A DNA stretch of 64,000 nt. It comes from Allorhizobium paknamense. GTDB taxonomy: Bacteria > Pseudomonadota > Alphaproteobacteria > Rhizobiales > Rhizobiaceae. The position numbers and the translations under genes are program-made. The stretch is from the NCBI RefSeq assembly GCF_030815125.1, contig NZ_JAUSWH010000009.1:62001-126000 (forward strand), in the 5' to 3' direction. Below are positions 2,653 through 61,882 of this stretch, piece by piece; positions within the stretch are counted from its first letter, which is position 1, and every line of letters begins with the position of its first letter. The notes beneath the pieces were generated by a model. The model saw nothing but the letters and a program-made list of their open reading frames with translations. It was not told the DNA's origin and did no database searches.

Positions 2653-3165
2653 ATGAACGAATTTTGGGTCTTTGGCTACGGTTCTTTAATGTGGAATCCC
2701 GGTTTCCCGTTCCACGAGCGGATCAGCGCCCGCGCGCACGGCTATCGCCGCGCCCTTTGTGTCCGCTCCTGGTATCATCGCGGCAGTGAAGCGGAACCGG
2801 GCCTCGTGCTGGGTCTCGACCATGGCGGTTCCTGTCATGGCGTGGCGTTTCAGGTGGCAGCCGAAGATTGGCCGGAGACGCTTGCCTATCTGCGCGAACG
2901 CGAGCTTGTAACCCAGGTTTACAAGGAGCGCAGGCTGCGCCTGACACTTGCCGATGGCCGTCTCGTGCAGGCGCTGACCTATGTGGTGGACCGACAGCAT
3001 AAGCAATATGCCGGTGCGCTGACCGTGGCGGAAGCCATCGACATCGTGCGCCGCGCCAACGGCCATTCCGGCCCCAACGACGCCTATGTGCTGAACACCG
3101 TGCAGCATTTGCGCAGCATGGGCATTCGCGACAAATGGCTGGAAGGCGTGGCGAATGGGCTATGA
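2653..3165 (+). CDS. ChaC-type glutathione-specific gamma-glutamylcyclotransferase
   Basis: Likely gamma-glutamylcyclotransferase of the ChaC/GCG family, which cleaves the gamma-glutamyl group of glutathione to 5-oxoproline plus Cys-Gly in the cytoplasm. The 170-residue protein starts MNEFWVFGYGSLMWNPGF, containing the diagnostic YGSLMW substrate-binding loop (residues 9-14), and continues with YLRERE (about 81-86), which holds the conserved catalytic Glu region of this family. Upstream in-frame ATG codons exist (2614, 2641), but the fold begins at the ATG at 2653. The start is divergent from the DUF2125 gene with a gap of about 50 bp, so the two may share a promoter region. E. coli ChaC is somewhat longer. 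Confidence 0.85.
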   Translation: MNEFWVFGYGSLMWNPGFPFHERISARAHGYRRALCVRSWYHRGSEAEPGLVLGLDHGGSCHGVAFQVAAEDWPETLAYLRERELVTQVYKERRLRLTLADGRLVQALTYVVDRQHKQYAGALTVAEAIDIVRRANGHSGPNDAYVLNTVQHLRSMGIRDKWLEGVANGL

Positions 3166-3287
3166 TACGAAGAGTCATTGAAAATGGCAGTTCGTATTCC
3201 CATTTCGAATATCTCAAGCCCTTGATGCATTTGAGATATTCGAAATCCCTTCAAGGCGAGGATGCATTAGCATCTTCGAGCCTTGGC
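3164..3287 (-). repeat. Family C mosaic repeat, uninterrupted copy
   Basis: Three linked parts: an outer hairpin (ATACGAAGAGTCATT, GAAA loop), a second palindrome (TTTCGAATATCTCAAG with CTTGAGATATTCGAAA-like arms around 3203-3246) and a tail with GGCGAGGATGCATTAGCATC. The same parts, in the same order on the opposite strand, recur at 35670-35893, where a second element has split the tail. It lies between the convergent genes chaC and plsC. Confidence 0.8.
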
Positions 3288-3292
3288 ATGAG

Positions 3293-23136: not shown

Positions 23137-23291
23137 CATGCTCCATAGAAGCGTGGAAACACTTTAGCTCTTTGTTTTCACGTGTTTCCGGACGGAAAAC
23201 CGGCTTCCACTTTTCCTGGAAACACTCTGGCTCTTTGTTTCTGCGTATTTCCGGACGGAAAACCGGCTTCCACTTTTCCTGGAAACACTCT
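23137..23291 (+). repeat. Family B palindromic repeat, two full copies plus a partial one in tandem
   Basis: Two copies (23169-23228 and 23231-23291) of CTCTTTGTTTT-CGTxTTTCCGGACGG-AAAACCGGCTTCCACTTTTCC-TGGAAACACTCT follow each other directly, preceded by a fragment ending GGAAACACTTTAG. Each unit can fold through TTTCC...GGAAA and CCGG palindromes. Single copies recur at 26939, 27153, 34324, 58986 and 61826. It fills most of the space before dxr. Confidence 0.8.
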
Positions 23292-26938: not shown

Positions 26939-26993
26939 GCATTTCCAGGAAAAGTGTAGTCACGGTTTTCCGTCCGGAAATGCATAAAAGCAA
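26939..26993 (-). repeat. Family B palindromic repeat
   Basis: GAGCATTTCCAGGAAAAGTG...CGGTTTTCCGTCCGGAAATGC is the family B unit in reverse orientation, slightly decayed in the middle (TAGTCA in place of GAAGC). Confidence 0.7.
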
Positions 26994-26996
26994 AAG

Positions 26997-27042
26997 CTTA
27001 GAGCACGTCCGGTGAACCCGTGTTCACCGGACGTGCTCTAAG
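26997..27042. repeat. Perfect 21-bp hairpin with TTAGAGC ends (family E)
   Basis: The arm 26997-27017 (starting CTTAGAGCACGTCC) is exactly complementary to 27022-27042, with a CCGT loop. The TTAGAGC...GCTCTAA ends are shared with the hairpin at 46839-46877, while the stem interior differs. No T-run follows on either strand. Confidence 0.75.
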
Positions 27043-27092
27043 AACCGGCCCAGGCCTGCCGCAGTCATGTTGCAGCAACACCTGGGCCGGTT
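27043..27092. repeat. Hairpin with 12-bp GC-rich stem
   Basis: AACCGGCCCAGG (27043-27054) pairs perfectly with CCTGGGCCGGTT (27081-27092) around a 26-base loop that contains a smaller TGC...GCA pairing. It directly follows the family E hairpin; TTTCGTGCCTTG follows on the + strand. Confidence 0.55.
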
Positions 27093-27152
27093 TCGTGCCT
27101 TGTTAGCAGCGACGAACCTTCCCAGACTGTTCAAGCTTGGGATTTCAGGCTA

Positions 27153-27205
27153 GAGTGCTGGCAGGAAAAGTGGGAACCGGTTTTCCGTTCTGAAACACGG
27201 ACATA
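27153..27205 (-). repeat. Family B palindromic repeat
   Basis: TAGAGTGCTGGCAGGAAAAGTGG...CCGGTTTTCCGTTCTGAAACACGG is a reverse copy of the family B unit with a few substitutions. Confidence 0.7.
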
Positions 27206-34264: not shown

Positions 34265-34285
34265 TCCGCCAAAATGAAATTTCAC

Positions 34286-34314
34286 AAAAAAGCCGCCCAC
34301 CCGGGCGGCTTTTT
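34286..34314 (+). terminator. Rho-independent terminator of the orphan cheW
   Basis: AGCCGCCC (34291-34298) and GGGCGGCT (34303-34310) form a perfect stem with an ACCC loop, preceded by a run of A and followed by TTTTTC. The flanking A and T runs extend the stem, so it can work in both directions. Confidence 0.88.
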
Positions 34315-34323
34315 CGTTGCTGG

Positions 34324-34386
34324 ATCTTTGTTTTTACGCATGTCCGGACGGAAAACCGGTTTCCACTTTTCGCGGGACAATGCTCT
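34324..34386 (+). repeat. Family B palindromic repeat
   Basis: CTTTGTTTTTACGCATGTCCGGACGG...AAACCGGTTTCCACTTTTCGCGGGACAATGCTCT. The right end has GCGGGACAATGC instead of CTGGAAACAC, a variant shared with the copy at 61826. It ends at the stop codon of the aldo/keto reductase gene. Confidence 0.75.
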
Positions 34387-35428
34387 ATTTCTTGTCAAAA
34401 GGCTGCGGGATGCGGGCAGCGCTCTGGCGGTCCAGCATCCAGCCCGGATATTCGGGCGGCAGGGCACTGACCGCATCCAGGCGTTCCAGATCTTCAGTCG
34501 TCAGCTTAAGGTCAACGGCGCGAATATTCTGCTCCAGCTGTTCCAGCCGCTTGGCGCCAATGATGACGCTGGTCACGAAAGGCTTGGCGAGAATATAGGC
34601 GAGTGCCACTTCCGCAACGCTGGCGCCGTGGCGCTCACCAATCTCGCGCATCAGCGCCACGCAGTCCCAGGCGCGGTCCTTGTTGACCGGCGGAAAGTCG
34701 AAATTGGCGCGGCGGCCTTCGCCGTTGCCCGGCGCGCCGGGACCGTATTTGCCCGAAAGCAGCCCGCCCGCCAAAGGTGACCAGACCATCAGGCCGAGCT
34801 TTTCCTCCTTGAGCAGCGGCACGATGTCCCGCTCCAGATCCCGGCCTGCGATCGAATAATAGGCCTGCACCGTCTCGAAACGGGCAAAGCCCCGGCGTTC
34901 CGAAATTCCAAGCGCCTTGGCAATGCGCCAGGCTGCCCAGTTGGAGACGCCGACATAGCGGACGAGGCCACGGGAGACGAGATCGTCCAGGGCCCGCAAT
35001 GTCTCGTCGATGGGCGTGACAATATCGGTGGCGTGGATCTGGTAGAGATCGATATGGTCCATTTGCAGCCGCTCCAGGCTCGCCTGCACCTGATCCATGA
35101 TATGCCCGCGTGACGCGCCGCGATCGTTCGGCCCATCCCCCATGACCCCATAGACCTTGGTGGCGACGACGACATCCTGCCGCTTGACCCCGAGATTGCG
35201 GAAGGCCTGGCCGAGCATCTTTTCGGAAACGCCGAAGGAATAGACATTGGCCGTATCGAAGAAGTTGATACCGGCAGAAAGCGCGCGCTCGACGATGCGG
35301 TCGGCGGCGGCCTGATCGACATCGGCAATCGCACCCCACATGCTGGAGCCGGCTTCGCCGAACGTCATGGTGCCAAGGCAGAGTTCAGACACGAACAGCC
35401 CGGTATGACCCAGTTGATTGTAACGCAT
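34385..35428 (-). CDS. Aldo/keto reductase
   Basis: NADPH-dependent oxidoreductase of the aldo/keto reductase superfamily (YghZ/Kv-beta-like branch by length and pattern); substrate unknown. The 347-residue protein has the catalytic tetrad D58 and Y63 (GINFFDTANVYSFG), K91 (VVVATKVYG) and H132 (DLYQIHATD), plus the C-terminal cofactor motif VTSVIIGAKRLEQLEQN. The ATG at 35428 lies 7 bases after GGGAG; the frame is open for 35 more codons upstream without clear coding character. It is flanked by repeats on both sides and not evidently linked to a pathway. Confidence 0.88.
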   Translation of the reverse strand: MRYNQLGHTGLFVSELCLGTMTFGEAGSSMWGAIADVDQAAADRIVERALSAGINFFDTANVYSFGVSEKMLGQAFRNLGVKRQDVVVATKVYGVMGDGPNDRGASRGHIMDQVQASLERLQMDHIDLYQIHATDIVTPIDETLRALDDLVSRGLVRYVGVSNWAAWRIAKALGISERRGFARFETVQAYYSIAGRDLERDIVPLLKEEKLGLMVWSPLAGGLLSGKYGPGAPGNGEGRRANFDFPPVNKDRAWDCVALMREIGERHGASVAEVALAYILAKPFVTSVIIGAKRLEQLEQNIRAVDLKLTTEDLERLDAVSALPPEYPGWMLDRQSAARIPQPFDKK

Positions 35429-35615
35429 GATGGAAACTCCCATGATGGGAAAGGAAGGAAAAGGCGGCCCCAAAGCCGCACGACAGACGCCCCGGCGATA
35501 AAAATGGACAAAGAGCCCGGCAGCATCCAGCACTTAACGTAAAGTCTCGACCAGACCGTTCAAGGGGGCGAGGATCACGAACCCTCATTCTCTCCAAAGA
35601 AAAGGGGCTCTCCAA

Positions 35616-35641
35616 CAAAAAAGGGCGACCGAAGCCGCCCT
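35616..35641 (-). terminator. Rho-independent terminator of the OFA transporter gene
   Basis: Read leftwards, AGGGCG-gcttcggt-CGCCCT is followed by TTTTTTG. It is 250 bp beyond the transporter stop, on the far side of the nested repeats. Confidence 0.7.
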
Positions 35642-35669
35642 CATCATCTCCTTCAAGCCTGGACTTATA

Positions 35670-35893
35670 CCAAGGCTCGAAGATGCTACTGCATAATTCC
35701 TTAAATCGGAATCGATTTAAGGTGAAATTATGCAGCAGATTTAAAGTCTTACAGCATGCTTTGTGCGTTTGATAAAACGCACGGCGCTGTAAAGCATCCT
35801 CGCCTTGAAAAGATTTCGAATATCTCAAATGCATCGAAGGCTTGAGATATTCGAAAAGGGAATACGAAGAGCCATTTTCAATGACTCATCGTA
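35670..35893 (+). repeat. Family C mosaic repeat interrupted by a family A element
   Basis: Left part CAAGGCTCGAAGATGC (35671-35686), then the family A insert, then GCATCCTCGCCTTGAAAAG, the palindrome around TTTCGAATATCTCAAATGC and CTTGAGATATTCGAAA (35814-35856), and the outer hairpin GAATACGAAGAGCC...GACTCATCGTATT. Without the insert the order and sequence match the reverse complement of 3164-3287 closely. Confidence 0.85.
35687..35791 (+). mobile_element. Family A element (MITE-like), inserted in a family C repeat
   Basis: A 101-bp core flanked by TA on both sides. It contains two hairpins: CTGCATAATTCCTTAAATCG with its complement (35689-35734, one arm slightly altered) and a second around TGCGTTTGATAAAACGCA ending CGGCGCTGTA. 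Compared with the uninterrupted family C copy, the target GATGC-TA-ATGCATCC has become GATGC-TA-insert-TA-AAGCATCC, as expected from insertion at TA with a TA duplication. Confidence 0.75.
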
Positions 35894-37549
35894 TTATCCG
35901 AACAGCACGAAGCTGCTCTTCAACGTCACCCAGACACCCCAGACCAGCGGGATACCGACGGCCAGCCAGGCGAGAGCCGCCTTGGCATCCAGGCCACCCT
36001 TGCCGATGCCGAAGGAGCCGGTGGGACCGGCATTGGCCGCTGCCGACTTGGCCTGCAGGGCCGCCACTTCTTCATCCGACATGTACCACTTTTCCGGCAG
36101 GGGCCGGACCAGGGCGTTGCAGATCAGACCGAGCGCCAGCATGCCCGCAAGGATATACATGGTGCTGGTGTAGAGCGCCGGTCCCGGGGCGACACCGGCG
36201 GCGATCTGCGCCTCGCGGATATAGTTTACCACGACCGGACCCACGATGCCCGCCGTGGACCAGGCCGTCAGCAACCGGCCATGGATGGCGCCGACGAATT
36301 GCGTGCCGAAGATATCGGCGAGATAGGCCGGTACCGTGGCGAAGCCGCCGCCATACATCGACAGGATGATGCCGAAGGCCAGAACGAAGAGAGCCTTGGA
36401 GCCCATCAGCGCCAGGGTCGGCGCAAGCGCGTAGAGAATGATGCCGAGGATGAAGAAGCAGAAATAGGTGTTCTTGCGGCCCAGCTTGTCAGACATCGAG
36501 GCCCAGAAGAACCGGCCACCAATGTTGAAAAGCGAGAGCAGGCCGGTGAAGCCGGCCGCAATGGCGGCGATCTGCGCCTTGCCCGCCGGATCGAGCTGGG
36601 CAAACGCAACGCCCGGCTGGCCGATCAGGGAACCGGCAAAGATTTCCTGCAGCATGGGCGAGGCCATGCCGATCACGCCGATGCCTGCCGAAACGTTGAG
36701 GCAAAGCACAGCCCAGATCAGCCAGAACTGCGGCGTCTTGTGCGCGTTGCGCAGATGAACGTGGCGATGGGTGATCATGCTGCTCTTGGCCGCCGGCGGC
36801 GTCCAGCCTTCCGGACGCCAGCCTGCCGGCGGAATGCGATAGCCAAAGGCACCGCCCATCATGAAGACGAAATAGATCGCCGCCATGACCATGAAGGTCT
36901 GCCAGACGCCGGGACCGGCCTCGGACTTGAACACGCCCATCAGCAGGTTGGCGAGCGGCGCGCCGATCATGGCCCCGCCGCCAAAGCCCATGATGGCCAT
37001 GCCCGTTGCCATGCCGCGACGGTCCGGGAACCACTTGATCAGCGTCGATACCGGCGAAATATAGCCAAGGCCAAGACCGACGCCACCAATGACGCCTGCA
37101 CCCAGCCACATCAGCCAGAGCTGATGCGTCATCACGCCAATCGACGCGACGAGAATGCCGCCGCACCAGCACAGTGCCGAGACGAAACCCGCCTTGCGCG
37201 GACCGACACGCTCCAGCCAACCACCCCAAAGCGCCGCCGAGCAGCCGAGCAACACGAAGAACAGGGTGTAGATCCAGCCGAGATCCGCCACGCGCCAGTT
37301 GCAGCTGGTGGTGAAAAGCGCATCCATCAGCGTCAGGCTGGCGCAGCTTGGGTCCGTCACCGGCAGCGCCTTGCTGAGCGGCAGCCAGAACACACTGAAG
37401 CCATAGGCCATGCCGATGCAAAGGTGAATGGCCAGCGCCGCAGGCGGGACCAGCCAGCGATTGAAGCCAGCCTTGGCGATAATTCTTTCACGGTCCAGAA
37501 GACCGCCTGCCGGGGATGTCCCCACCCCGGATGAGCTTGTGACAGCCAT
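35894..37549 (-). CDS. OFA-family MFS transporter (oxalate/formate antiporter type)
   Basis: Major facilitator protein of the oxalate:formate antiporter family, 551 residues with about 12-14 membrane spans. A first helix begins WLVPPAALAIHLCIGMAYGFSVF; the loop between helices 2 and 3 has WGGWLERVGPRKAG and the central loop a long insert (about 245-290). The C-terminal cytosolic segment LPEKWYMSDEEVAALQAKS is followed by one more predicted helix. GGAGAGAAGGGT precedes the ATG. It lies 270 bp downstream of fdsD on the same strand, so formate or oxalate uptake for the formate dehydrogenase is a reasonable inference; sequence alone does not fix the substrate. Confidence 0.85.
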   Translation of the reverse strand: MAVTSSSGVGTSPAGGLLDRERIIAKAGFNRWLVPPAALAIHLCIGMAYGFSVFWLPLSKALPVTDPSCASLTLMDALFTTSCNWRVADLGWIYTLFFVLLGCSAALWGGWLERVGPRKAGFVSALCWCGGILVASIGVMTHQLWLMWLGAGVIGGVGLGLGYISPVSTLIKWFPDRRGMATGMAIMGFGGGAMIGAPLANLLMGVFKSEAGPGVWQTFMVMAAIYFVFMMGGAFGYRIPPAGWRPEGWTPPAAKSSMITHRHVHLRNAHKTPQFWLIWAVLCLNVSAGIGVIGMASPMLQEIFAGSLIGQPGVAFAQLDPAGKAQIAAIAAGFTGLLSLFNIGGRFFWASMSDKLGRKNTYFCFFILGIILYALAPTLALMGSKALFVLAFGIILSMYGGGFATVPAYLADIFGTQFVGAIHGRLLTAWSTAGIVGPVVVNYIREAQIAAGVAPGPALYTSTMYILAGMLALGLICNALVRPLPEKWYMSDEEVAALQAKSAAANAGPTGSFGIGKGGLDAKAALAWLAVGIPLVWGVWVTLKSSFVLFG

Positions 37550-52604: not shown

Positions 52605-52904
52605 AGACCTCTCCTTTTCTGCGCTGCGAGCCGGTGACCACAAAACGGAATCAGCTCCACCCTTTTCCGGCAGGGTTCTACTGCATAATTCCTTAAATCG
52701 GAATCGATTTAAGGATAAAATTATGCAGCAGATTTAAAGCGTTACAGCGAACCTTTGTGCGCCATATATGGCGCACGGCGCTGTAAAGCATGTTCGCCAA
52801 GGGTGTGAAGAAAATTTACTGCGACAACGACCGCAATGGCACGAAAAGACGAGCCCCACGGGAGACACCATGATCCGGTCAATCCAGAGAATGCCCCGCA
52901 AGCC
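52605..52904. other. Intergenic region with a family A element
   Basis: About 300 bp between the priA stop and the small membrane protein gene. Apart from the family A element at 52679-52785 nothing was recognised. Confidence 0.5.
52679..52785 (+). mobile_element. Family A element (MITE-like)
   Basis: TA-flanked core of 103 bp (52681-52783): first hairpin CTGCATAATTCCTTAAATCG with complementary arm ending TTATGCAG, then GATTTAAAGCGTTACAGCG, then a second hairpin with inner arms TGTGCGCCAT and ATGGCGCAC and the end CGGCGCTG. Confidence 0.75.
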
Positions 52905-58822: not shown

Positions 58823-58929
58823 TACTGCATAATTCCTTGAATCCTAATCGATTTAAGGTGAAAATTATGCAGCAGATTTAAAGCGTTACAGCGAACCTTT
58901 GTGCGCCATTTATGGCGCACGGCGCTGTA
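58823..58929 (+). mobile_element. Family A element (MITE-like)
   Basis: TA-flanked core of 103 bp (58825-58927): CTGCATAATTCCTTGAATCC with partner arm ending TTATGCAG, GATTTAAAGCGTTACAGCG, then the TGTGCGCCAT/ATGGCGCAC hairpin and CGGCGCTG. Confidence 0.75.
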
Positions 58930-58985
58930 TGTTAACAATTCCATAACGGCTCTGACGCAATCTGTGTCCCTTCATGCGGGACAAG

Positions 58986-59046
58986 CGTGTCTTATTTGCG
59001 CATTTCCGGACGGAAAACCGATTTCCACTTTTCCTGGAAACGCTTT
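58986..59046 (+). repeat. Family B palindromic repeat
   Basis: GCGTGTCTTATTTGCGCATTTCCGGACGG, AAAACCGATTTCCACTTTTCC, TGGAAACGCTTT. It is immediately upstream of the xerC ribosome binding site. Confidence 0.75.
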
Positions 59047-60050: not shown

Positions 60051-60148
60051 TACTGCATAATTCCTTAAATCGGAATCGATTTAAGGAATTATGCAGCAGA
60101 TTTAGAGTGTTACAGCGCCGTGCGTTTGATAAAACGCACGGCGCTGTA
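60051..60148 (+). mobile_element. Family A element (MITE-like), most symmetrical copy
   Basis: TA-flanked core of 94 bp (60053-60146). Here both hairpins are perfect: CTGCATAATTCCTTAAATCG with its exact complement, and ACAGCGCCGTGCGTTT-gata-AAACGCACGGCGCTGT. The shorter length compared with the other copies is due to loss of a few bases in the arms. Confidence 0.78.
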
Positions 60149-60245: not shown

Positions 60246-61292
60246 ATGGACCGTTGGCTGAAACAAGCATGCCGCGCCGCAGCCGCATTGCCGCTGATGC
60301 TTCTGCTGCTTCTCCTCTCCACGCTGGCACTGGTACAGCCCGCTCGGTCAGAGGATGCCAGCACCTGCCACGCCCATAATCTCCTGCCGGAATTTGAAAA
60401 GACCGAACCCGAAGCCTTTGCCAGAGTGCAGGCTGAGGCGCGGCAAACGCCAAATGGCAACAGTATCTTCTGGAAACTTGAAAAGCCGGGCCGGGAACCC
60501 TCCTGGCTTCTGGGAACGATGCACCTGACCGACCCGCGCGTCACCGCCATGCCGCCTGCCGCACGCGAGGCTTTCCAGGCGGCGGATACGGTGGTGCTGG
60601 AATCCGATGAGATTCTCGACCCGAAGAAGGCGGCGTTTGCGATTCTGGCGAAGCCGGAATTTTCGACCTTCACCGATGGATCGACCCTGACCGGACTGCT
60701 ATCTGCCGAGGATGTGGCAACCATTGATGCGGCTCTGAAACCGAAGGGCCTTTCGGTAAAGGGCCTGAACCGCATGAAGCCGTGGCTGATTTCCGCCATG
60801 CTGGCTCTGCCCGGTTGCGAGATGAGCCGCAAGGGTCAGGGAGGCTTGTTTCTGGATATGAAGCTGGCTGTCGATGCCGCCAAGGCCGGCAAAGAAGTTT
60901 TGGGGGTCGAGACCCTGGCCGAACAGTTCGAGGCCATGAACGCTGTCCCGATCGATGTGCATTTGAAGTCGCTGGTGAGCGTCGCCAAGGCCAAGGACCA
61001 GATCAATGACGTCATGGAAACCATGATTGATCTCTATCTGAACGGTCAGATTGGCATGATTACGCCGACCTTGCGGGCCGCTGCACCGGATGGCACGGAA
61101 GCAACTCCGTTCGAACAACGGATGATCGTTGACCGCAACAAGGTCATGGCGCAGCGCGGCGGGCCGATCCTCGATAATGGCAATGTCTTCATGGCTGTCG
61201 GAGCCCTGCATCTGCCGGGCAAGGACGGGCTGATCGAACTGCTGCGCCAGCAGGGTTTCACGATCACCCCCGTTGCGTCTACGCCGGGATAA
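60246..61292 (+). CDS. TraB/GumN family exported protein
   Basis: A 348-residue protein of the TraB/GumN family, some members of which are thought to be metalloproteases, though bacterial roles are not settled. A long signal peptide (hydrophobic stretch AAALPLMLLLLLLSTLALV, ending near residue 35) directs export. Family blocks: WLLGTMHLTDPRV (about 87-99, with the first conserved His), VLESDE, GLNRMKPWLISAM, and near the end NGNVFMAVGALHLPGKDGLIELLRQ, with the second GxxH motif. GGGAGAACAG precedes the ATG. It is followed by convergent cytochrome b561. Confidence 0.85.
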   Translation: MDRWLKQACRAAAALPLMLLLLLLSTLALVQPARSEDASTCHAHNLLPEFEKTEPEAFARVQAEARQTPNGNSIFWKLEKPGREPSWLLGTMHLTDPRVTAMPPAAREAFQAADTVVLESDEILDPKKAAFAILAKPEFSTFTDGSTLTGLLSAEDVATIDAALKPKGLSVKGLNRMKPWLISAMLALPGCEMSRKGQGGLFLDMKLAVDAAKAGKEVLGVETLAEQFEAMNAVPIDVHLKSLVSVAKAKDQINDVMETMIDLYLNGQIGMITPTLRAAAPDGTEATPFEQRMIVDRNKVMAQRGGPILDNGNVFMAVGALHLPGKDGLIELLRQQGFTITPVASTPG

Positions 61293-61298
61293 CGAGGT

Positions 61299-61802: not shown

Positions 61803-61825
61803 TGTTTCTGCCTTTAGTCTTTCCG

Positions 61826-61882
61826 TGTTTCCGTGTTTCCAGACGGAAAACCGGACTCCACTTTTCTCGGGACAATGCTTTA
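61826..61882 (+). repeat. Family B palindromic repeat
   Basis: GTGTTTCCGTGTTTCCAGACGG, AAAACCGGACTCCACTTTTC, TCGGGACAATGCTTTA. Has the same right-end variant (CGGGACAATGCT) as the copy at 34324. It lies just upstream of cytochrome b561. Confidence 0.7.

Follow-up and report, generated by a model that had tools for sequence, protein, structure and literature searches.

How did a short repeat come to lie inside another repeat with TA on both of its sides, and do these repeats move? In the window, by which we mean the whole 64,000-nucleotide stretch of Allorhizobium paknamense DNA analyzed here, the plus strand from 35668 to 35893 reads as the left part of family C, TA, a 101-bp family A repeat, TA, and the right part of family C (Table 1). 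The original prediction that A is nested within C is confirmed: this stretch is a composite, no insertion interrupts the C copy at 3166-3288, and the sequences quoted for the copies at 35670-35893 and 3164 are all present. The three other A copies named there, at 52679, 58823, and 60051, are indeed flanked by TA; the single body length of 101 bp given for the family did not carry over to them, their bodies measuring 103, 103, and 94 bp. Directly after the right TA comes AAGCATCC at the nested site, as against ATGCATCC in the copy at 3164. Because the commonest C apex in the window's genome is TAAC (29 of 54 C copies), this contrast comes down to single-base differences. The last two bases of the uninterrupted C copy are CA, not TA.

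We propose, with a probability of about 0.8, that family A is a RIME1/CIR-type element (both kinds are described below) with a borrowed transposase and insertion at YTAR, and that family C is a second element, with a TNA target, that A has entered. Family A would thus be a small, nonautonomous mobile element; a transposase supplied from elsewhere would move it, and its insertion at YTAR leaves TA on both sides, as the empty sites below show. At this locus, C would have landed first, at TTA, and A would later have entered the YTAR at the C apex. The nesting itself shows this order, as does, for another copy, an orthologous C that is empty in a sister strain.

Table 1. Positions of the family A and family C features within the window
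Feature	Position	Strand	Remark
Uninterrupted family C without A	3166-3288	+	TGA at 3163-3165 and 3289-3291
TTA, family C left target duplication	35665-35667	.	TNA rule for C
C-left (TACCAAGG...GATGC)	35668-35686	-	split at apex by A insertion
TA, family A left target duplication	35687-35688	.	
Family A body, 101 bp	35689-35789	+	two hairpins, no gene (RIME1/CIR-like)
Hairpin 1 of A (CTGCATAATT...AATTATGCAG)	35689-35735	+	single-strand DNA fold
GAATC (GANTC site), loop of hairpin 1	35709-35713	+	same position in 51/60 copies
Hairpin 2 of A (TTACAGC...GCTGTAA)	35749-35792	+	right TA among outer base pairs
TA, family A right target duplication	35790-35791	.	
C-right, terminating CGTA	35792-35893	-	
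TTA, family C right target duplication	35894-35896	.	
Family A copy, body 103 bp	52679-52785	+	TA both sides
Family A copy, body 103 bp	58823-58929	+	TA both sides
Family A copy, body 94 bp	60051-60148	+	TA both sides

Family A is abundant in the window's genome, which is 5.33 Mb in size and belongs to the genus Allorhizobium. There were 214 loose candidates, 40 of them scored, and 706 kb of this genome held 40 matches, 28 of them full length. Across the bacterial family, a match was found in 46 of 199 genomes, representing 30 of 109 genera, and on 350 of 72,556 plasmid records, mostly from Rhizobium, Sinorhizobium, and Agrobacterium. To define the flanks, we used 60 distinct full copies, 50 from the window's genome and 10 from its best-matching genome, G007, which appears to be Allorhizobium undicola. 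Copies were included if no more than two model positions were missing at either end, and duplicates were removed; because the set was drawn from best-scoring matches and from fetched sequence, it favors well-preserved copies.

The TA flanks are not due to chance. TA is found on the left in 47 of the 60 copies, on the right in 58, and on both sides in 45; the original prediction had staked itself on most copies not lacking flanking TA. The preference extends outward as well. Among the 45 copies with TA on both sides, the preceding base is C or T in all 45 and the following base is A or G in 42, and YTAR is the target of 35 of 38 non-nested copies, compared to 13 of 92 background TAs in the flanks (P = 1.7e-17). 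Targeting by dyad symmetry or hairpin apices was considered and rejected, the symmetry of 45 targets (70) being lower than the shuffled expectation of 83.4.

The two sides are not equivalent, however. The left TA has been lost more often than the right (13 versus 2 of 60 copies; P = 0.007), and plain duplication does not predict this bias. Since the right TA is base paired within hairpin 2, one can speculate that hairpin-templated repair preserves the TA on that side. The commonest replacement of the left TA is TG (5 of 13), which would lengthen the pairing of hairpin 1. At a TA site, duplication would be indistinguishable from the joining of a target TA to a right TA that the element brings with it.

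Comparison of sister genomes shows that family A has been mobile recently, inserting at TA and leaving TA on both sides. The genomes compared (G012, G015, G033, and G042) are mostly 93 to 97% alike at one compared locus; G042 and G033 appear to be A. vitis CG957 (CP146241) and A. vitis T60/94 (NZ_CP118261), respectively. Within this A. vitis group, 28 of 57 A copies can be compared with the corresponding place in another genome: 13 are shared, 10 were read (flank gap of -30 to +10), and 5 with other gaps were left unjudged; the other 29 have no comparable place within the fetched sequence. At 11 polymorphic loci, filled in one genome and empty in a sister, TA is present at the empty junction in 7. 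On a plasmid of A. vitis CG957, the filled site reads CTC-TA-[A]-TA-AGG versus CTC-TA-AGG in the T60/94 and S4 plasmids, the one clean case among six A. vitis plasmid copies searched for empty sites. The empty sites read GGC-TA-CA for G042:3045858, ACT-TA-AA for G033:2679008, and CTC-TA-AA for G042:2812016, where the filled site now has TC on the left; for G042:2118735, YTAG is found in two empties and the filled site now has CG on the left. Two more are less clean: for G033:2507059, an older A has its left TA at the junction, and for G012:259158, there is one TA in G033 and G042 and TATA in G015. Among the remaining four, two are one base off TA (CA for G042:1692068 and TC for G042:3032235) and two are unclear, G033:2214226 and G042:2517776, the latter with empty sites that lack TA and a filled site with CC on the left and TA on the right. 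With 7 of 11 empty sites having a junction TA and 45 of 60 copies flanked by TA, the predicted mobility and insertion with TA duplication are borne out. A. undicola and the window's genome are too diverged from each other to give usable empty sites. On four R. leguminosarum-group plasmids, 20 A loci (part of 30 fetched) gave no empty site; at 19 of them, the flanks match those of a copy on another of the four plasmids.

The locus G042:2517776, taken with the unequal flanks and with two hairpins lacking inverted ends, would also fit a REPIN-like element moved at its hairpins by a Y1 (RAYT/IS200-type) transposase, the right TA being part of the element and no real duplication taking place. One genome, G029, has both A copies and a Y1_Tnp match. 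Yet Y1_Tnp is found in just 2 of the 63 genomes of the genus (G001 and G029) and in none of six A-rich ones, the window's own among them (G000, G007, G012, G015, G033, and G042), and at the two loci above whose left pair is now TC or CG, the empty site has TA. We therefore consider movement by a Y1 enzyme very improbable.

Nesting of A at the same TA of C has recurred. The left A-in-C junction was found at 5 places in the window's genome, 5 in A. undicola, and 1 in G042, always at the same C TA, and C resumes to the right of A in 10 of these 11 loci, in some of them diverged or short. These come from 26 A-in-C junction matches listed, of which 12 were read; the twelfth candidate, from A. undicola, has no recognizable C. 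Of the 14 unread matches, ten have matched letters that indicate a C lacking A, and the four others, in G026, G045, G033, and G093, are doubtful three-mismatch matches that were left out of the count. In two of the 10 loci, one per genome, A has no hairpin 2. In both of these copies (L132, at C4:105218 of the window's genome, and L125, at C3:2813 of G007), hairpin 2 was lost at the same point, which leaves TTACAGC next to ATCCTCGCC; the probable cause is a deletion between short AGCAT repeats in A and C.

The common TA at all 11 left junctions read could mean that a nested C[A] moved once as a composite and was then copied, which would reduce the repeated nesting to a single event. The nested A copies vary in length class, however, and each of the 8 that belong to the 60-copy set is most similar to a solo copy. 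Moreover, an orthologous C without A exists: at G042:3032235, A lies in the C apex, and the G033 orthologue is C alone. YTAR is present at the apex in 32 of 54 full C copies and elsewhere in these copies only three times in total. That TA is thus almost the only YTAR in C, so that the YTAR rule alone explains the hot spot, including the preference for the apex, and a single composite event seems to us very unlikely. Beyond two short matches at unrelated offsets, no orthologous flanks were found for the nested A copies.

The window also shows rearrangement relative to A. undicola: the stretch between 34268-35895 and 61273-61298 is inverted. The C[A] composite ends no more than two bases from one aligned block of this comparison, and the A. 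undicola breakpoints have a partial A and a hairpin resembling hairpin 2 of A, followed by T's.

Family C is itself a small mobile element, a point missed by the original prediction. With its limits set as TACC...CGTA and 53 of 54 copies used (one without the closing A was omitted), TNA is found on both sides of 42 copies, and the middle base agrees in 34 of the 42. Shuffling gives an expected agreement of 12.8, and none of 10,000 shuffles reached 34. The two C copies in the window illustrate the rule, with TGA/TGA at 3166-3288 and TTA/TTA at 35668-35893. Statistically, then, C is shown to have a 3-bp TNA duplication, such as is typical of some IS5-family groups, and it looks like part of another system. 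Given that C uses TNA and A uses TA, the window contains one mobile element inside another, with different target rules.

What in family A might a transposase recognize? The repeat is made up of two long inverted repeats and a linker, and the 106 bases folded as single-stranded DNA give -32.1 kcal/mol (z = -9.4). In 24 diverse A copies, 8 of 32 predicted stem pairs have changed on both sides with pairing kept in at least one sequence; these compensatory changes show maintenance of the hairpins and no more. Terminal inverted repeats were tested for and are absent: CTGCATAATT and the reversed CAGCGCCGTG share only C-GC, and since these are the sole matching letters, the earlier description of the ends as only weakly inverted was right. 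The outer stems of both hairpins would be the best candidates for end recognition. GANTC is found at the loop of hairpin 1 in 51 of the 60 full copies. Special conservation of GANTC is not supported: in the 60 copies, the variation at its positions equals or slightly exceeds that of the adjoining stem. A search of Rfam gave no match at the gathering score. One can envision a broader scheme in which RIME1/CIR-type repeats form part of a TA-duplicating class with a transposase that recognizes, in place of terminal inverted repeats, the outer stems of two dissimilar hairpins, methylation of the loop GANTC perhaps acting as a gate; we regard it as unlikely.

Strong folding and compensatory changes are what one would expect of a static regulatory hairpin (an RNA or terminator) under selection, with differences in presence arising by deletion. 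The flanks shared by 19 of 20 fetched R. leguminosarum-group plasmid copies and the 13 shared among 28 comparable A. vitis-group copies would fit as well. Against this, the empty sites show no gap but a TA precisely where the junction lies, A has inserted inside another repeat, and near-identical A copies are found at unshared places. In the A. vitis group, among the matches listed, copies 97 to 99% identical to one query occupy differing places. As a full account of A, the static hairpin is refuted, and we give it hardly any weight; an additional function of the mobile element is possible. The same group holds a subfamily with GCGCCATATATGGCGC in hairpin 2 (L302 to L331), many copies of which are 95 to 99% identical to one query and lie at unlike places. 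This subfamily is a recent burst, located mostly in G042 among the matches listed.

That leaves the enzyme. It seems most likely that the mobile element A would be moved by a DDE transposase specific for TA. We weakly prefer one of the IS630/Tc1-mariner type over one of the IS5/IS427 type: TA duplication is the rule for IS630, and the data do not separate the two. The original prediction assigned A to an IS630/mariner enzyme, for which we did not find the expected counterpart. IS630 matches are present in 37 of the 63 genomes of the genus. CTGC/CAGC ends were found at none of the IS630 loci inspected (30 plus 15 stretches, some of the same elements), many of which gave no clear ends. Readable TA-flanked IS630 ends were of the GAGC/GAGT-, GTGG-, or GTCACC-type and lay in YTA...TAR. 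No longer element with the ends of A was found in 1.84 Mb or in the IS630 loci. One 12-base resemblance, in C17 of the window's genome, lies inside another reading frame.

PF13340 (IS5/IS427-type) matches are about as widespread, in 38 of the 63 genomes. Ends were clear in 11 of 30 fetched IS5/IS427-type loci, each in YTA...TAR, so that the target cannot separate this type from IS630. Movement of A by an IS5-family (IS427/IS711-type) transposase would also be in keeping with IS711, which is reported to duplicate the TA of YTAR and to favor Bru-RS palindromes (PMC2266754, in the part available), and with G026, which has A copies and PF13340 matches and no IS630 match. On the other side, the IS5-type ends (GGCC, GGTC, GGGTC, or GAGCC) do not match CTGC/CAGC, and both G011 and G029 have A copies without a PF13340 match. 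We see the IS5-family enzyme as a possible mover of A, on the doubtful side. G011 lacks an IS630 match as well, which also weighs against the IS630 assignment. In G011 and G026, A may thus have been moved by a different enzyme, or its enzyme may since have disappeared.

Another palindrome family in the window, with a GGAAAACCG core, is found at 23154-23279, 26963-27199, 34310-34372, 58972-59034, and 61805-61867. It has GCTCTA/TAGAGC ends in several places, such as the 34310 copy. IS630 elements of the genus (e.g., L231, L232, and L247) have TAGAGC ends. Because of these common ends, the GGAAAACCG-core palindrome may be an IS630-derived small element.

For decades, the double-hairpin repeats of rhizobia and caulobacteria have been listed as intergenic sequences with no known function. 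The empty sites demonstrate the mobility of one family of this kind and define its ends and its target (YTAR, with TA duplicated). They also point to A. vitis CG957 and T60/94 (as we have named these strains above) as strains with recent movement, and they turn the missing A transposase into a defined problem. Two nested mobile systems, TA for A and TNA for C, are separated as well. The kind of element is already known; evidence of recent movement and the target rule are new. Family A is best filed as RIME1/CIR-like. It duplicates its target as a MITE does, and the absence of terminal inverted repeats keeps it from being a MITE in the strict sense. Of the features of IS630-derived elements, A has the TA target and its duplication; ends in common with an autonomous IS630 were not found in a sampling that is incomplete.

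RIME1, a Rhizobium-specific intergenic mosaic element, was reportedly described by Osteras et al. in 1995 as 108 bp long, with two large palindromes, and present in several Rhizobiaceae. Compared by description only, family A is similar: it has two palindromes, bodies of 94 to 103 bp in the four window copies, and a home on plasmids of Rhizobium, Sinorhizobium, and Agrobacterium. From this resemblance, we take RIME1 to be the likely older name of family A. In the available parts of PMC2245857 and PMC2573895, RIMEs are named only as repeats, the latter placing them among sequences of unknown function.

As described in a 2007 review (PMC2229807, in the part available), the CIRs (Caulobacter CcrM-associated intergenic repeats) are about 110 bp long and consist of two arms joined by a linker; one of the arms carries GANTC at its loop, the ends are TA, terminal inverted repeats are lacking, and the mechanism of mobility is left open. 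By description, though not by CIR1-4 sequence, family A agrees at each anatomical point tested, including TA ends (both sides in 45 of 60). The table of that review, in the part seen, marks the CIR target duplication with a question mark; for A, in contrast, duplication is shown, and our result bears on this question mark. In the literature searched, mostly without subscription papers and in part as excerpts, we found no report of target duplication for a RIME or CIR.

RUP, ERIC, and Correia elements are also small, with TA ends and target duplication, according to the available part of the same review (PMC2229807). Unlike A, they have terminal inverted repeats (9, 7, and 24 bp, respectively), and RUP has a matching IS630 partner (PMC2229807, same part); none was found for A. 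REPINs and their RAYTs resemble A in short palindromes and high copy number and differ in that the six A-rich genomes have no Y1 transposase. The arrangement in the window recalls Bru-RS and IS711 of Brucella, where palindromic repeats are preferred places for an IS with a YTAR target (PMC2266754, in the part available). There, an IS lands in a palindrome; here, a small repeat lands in another repeat.
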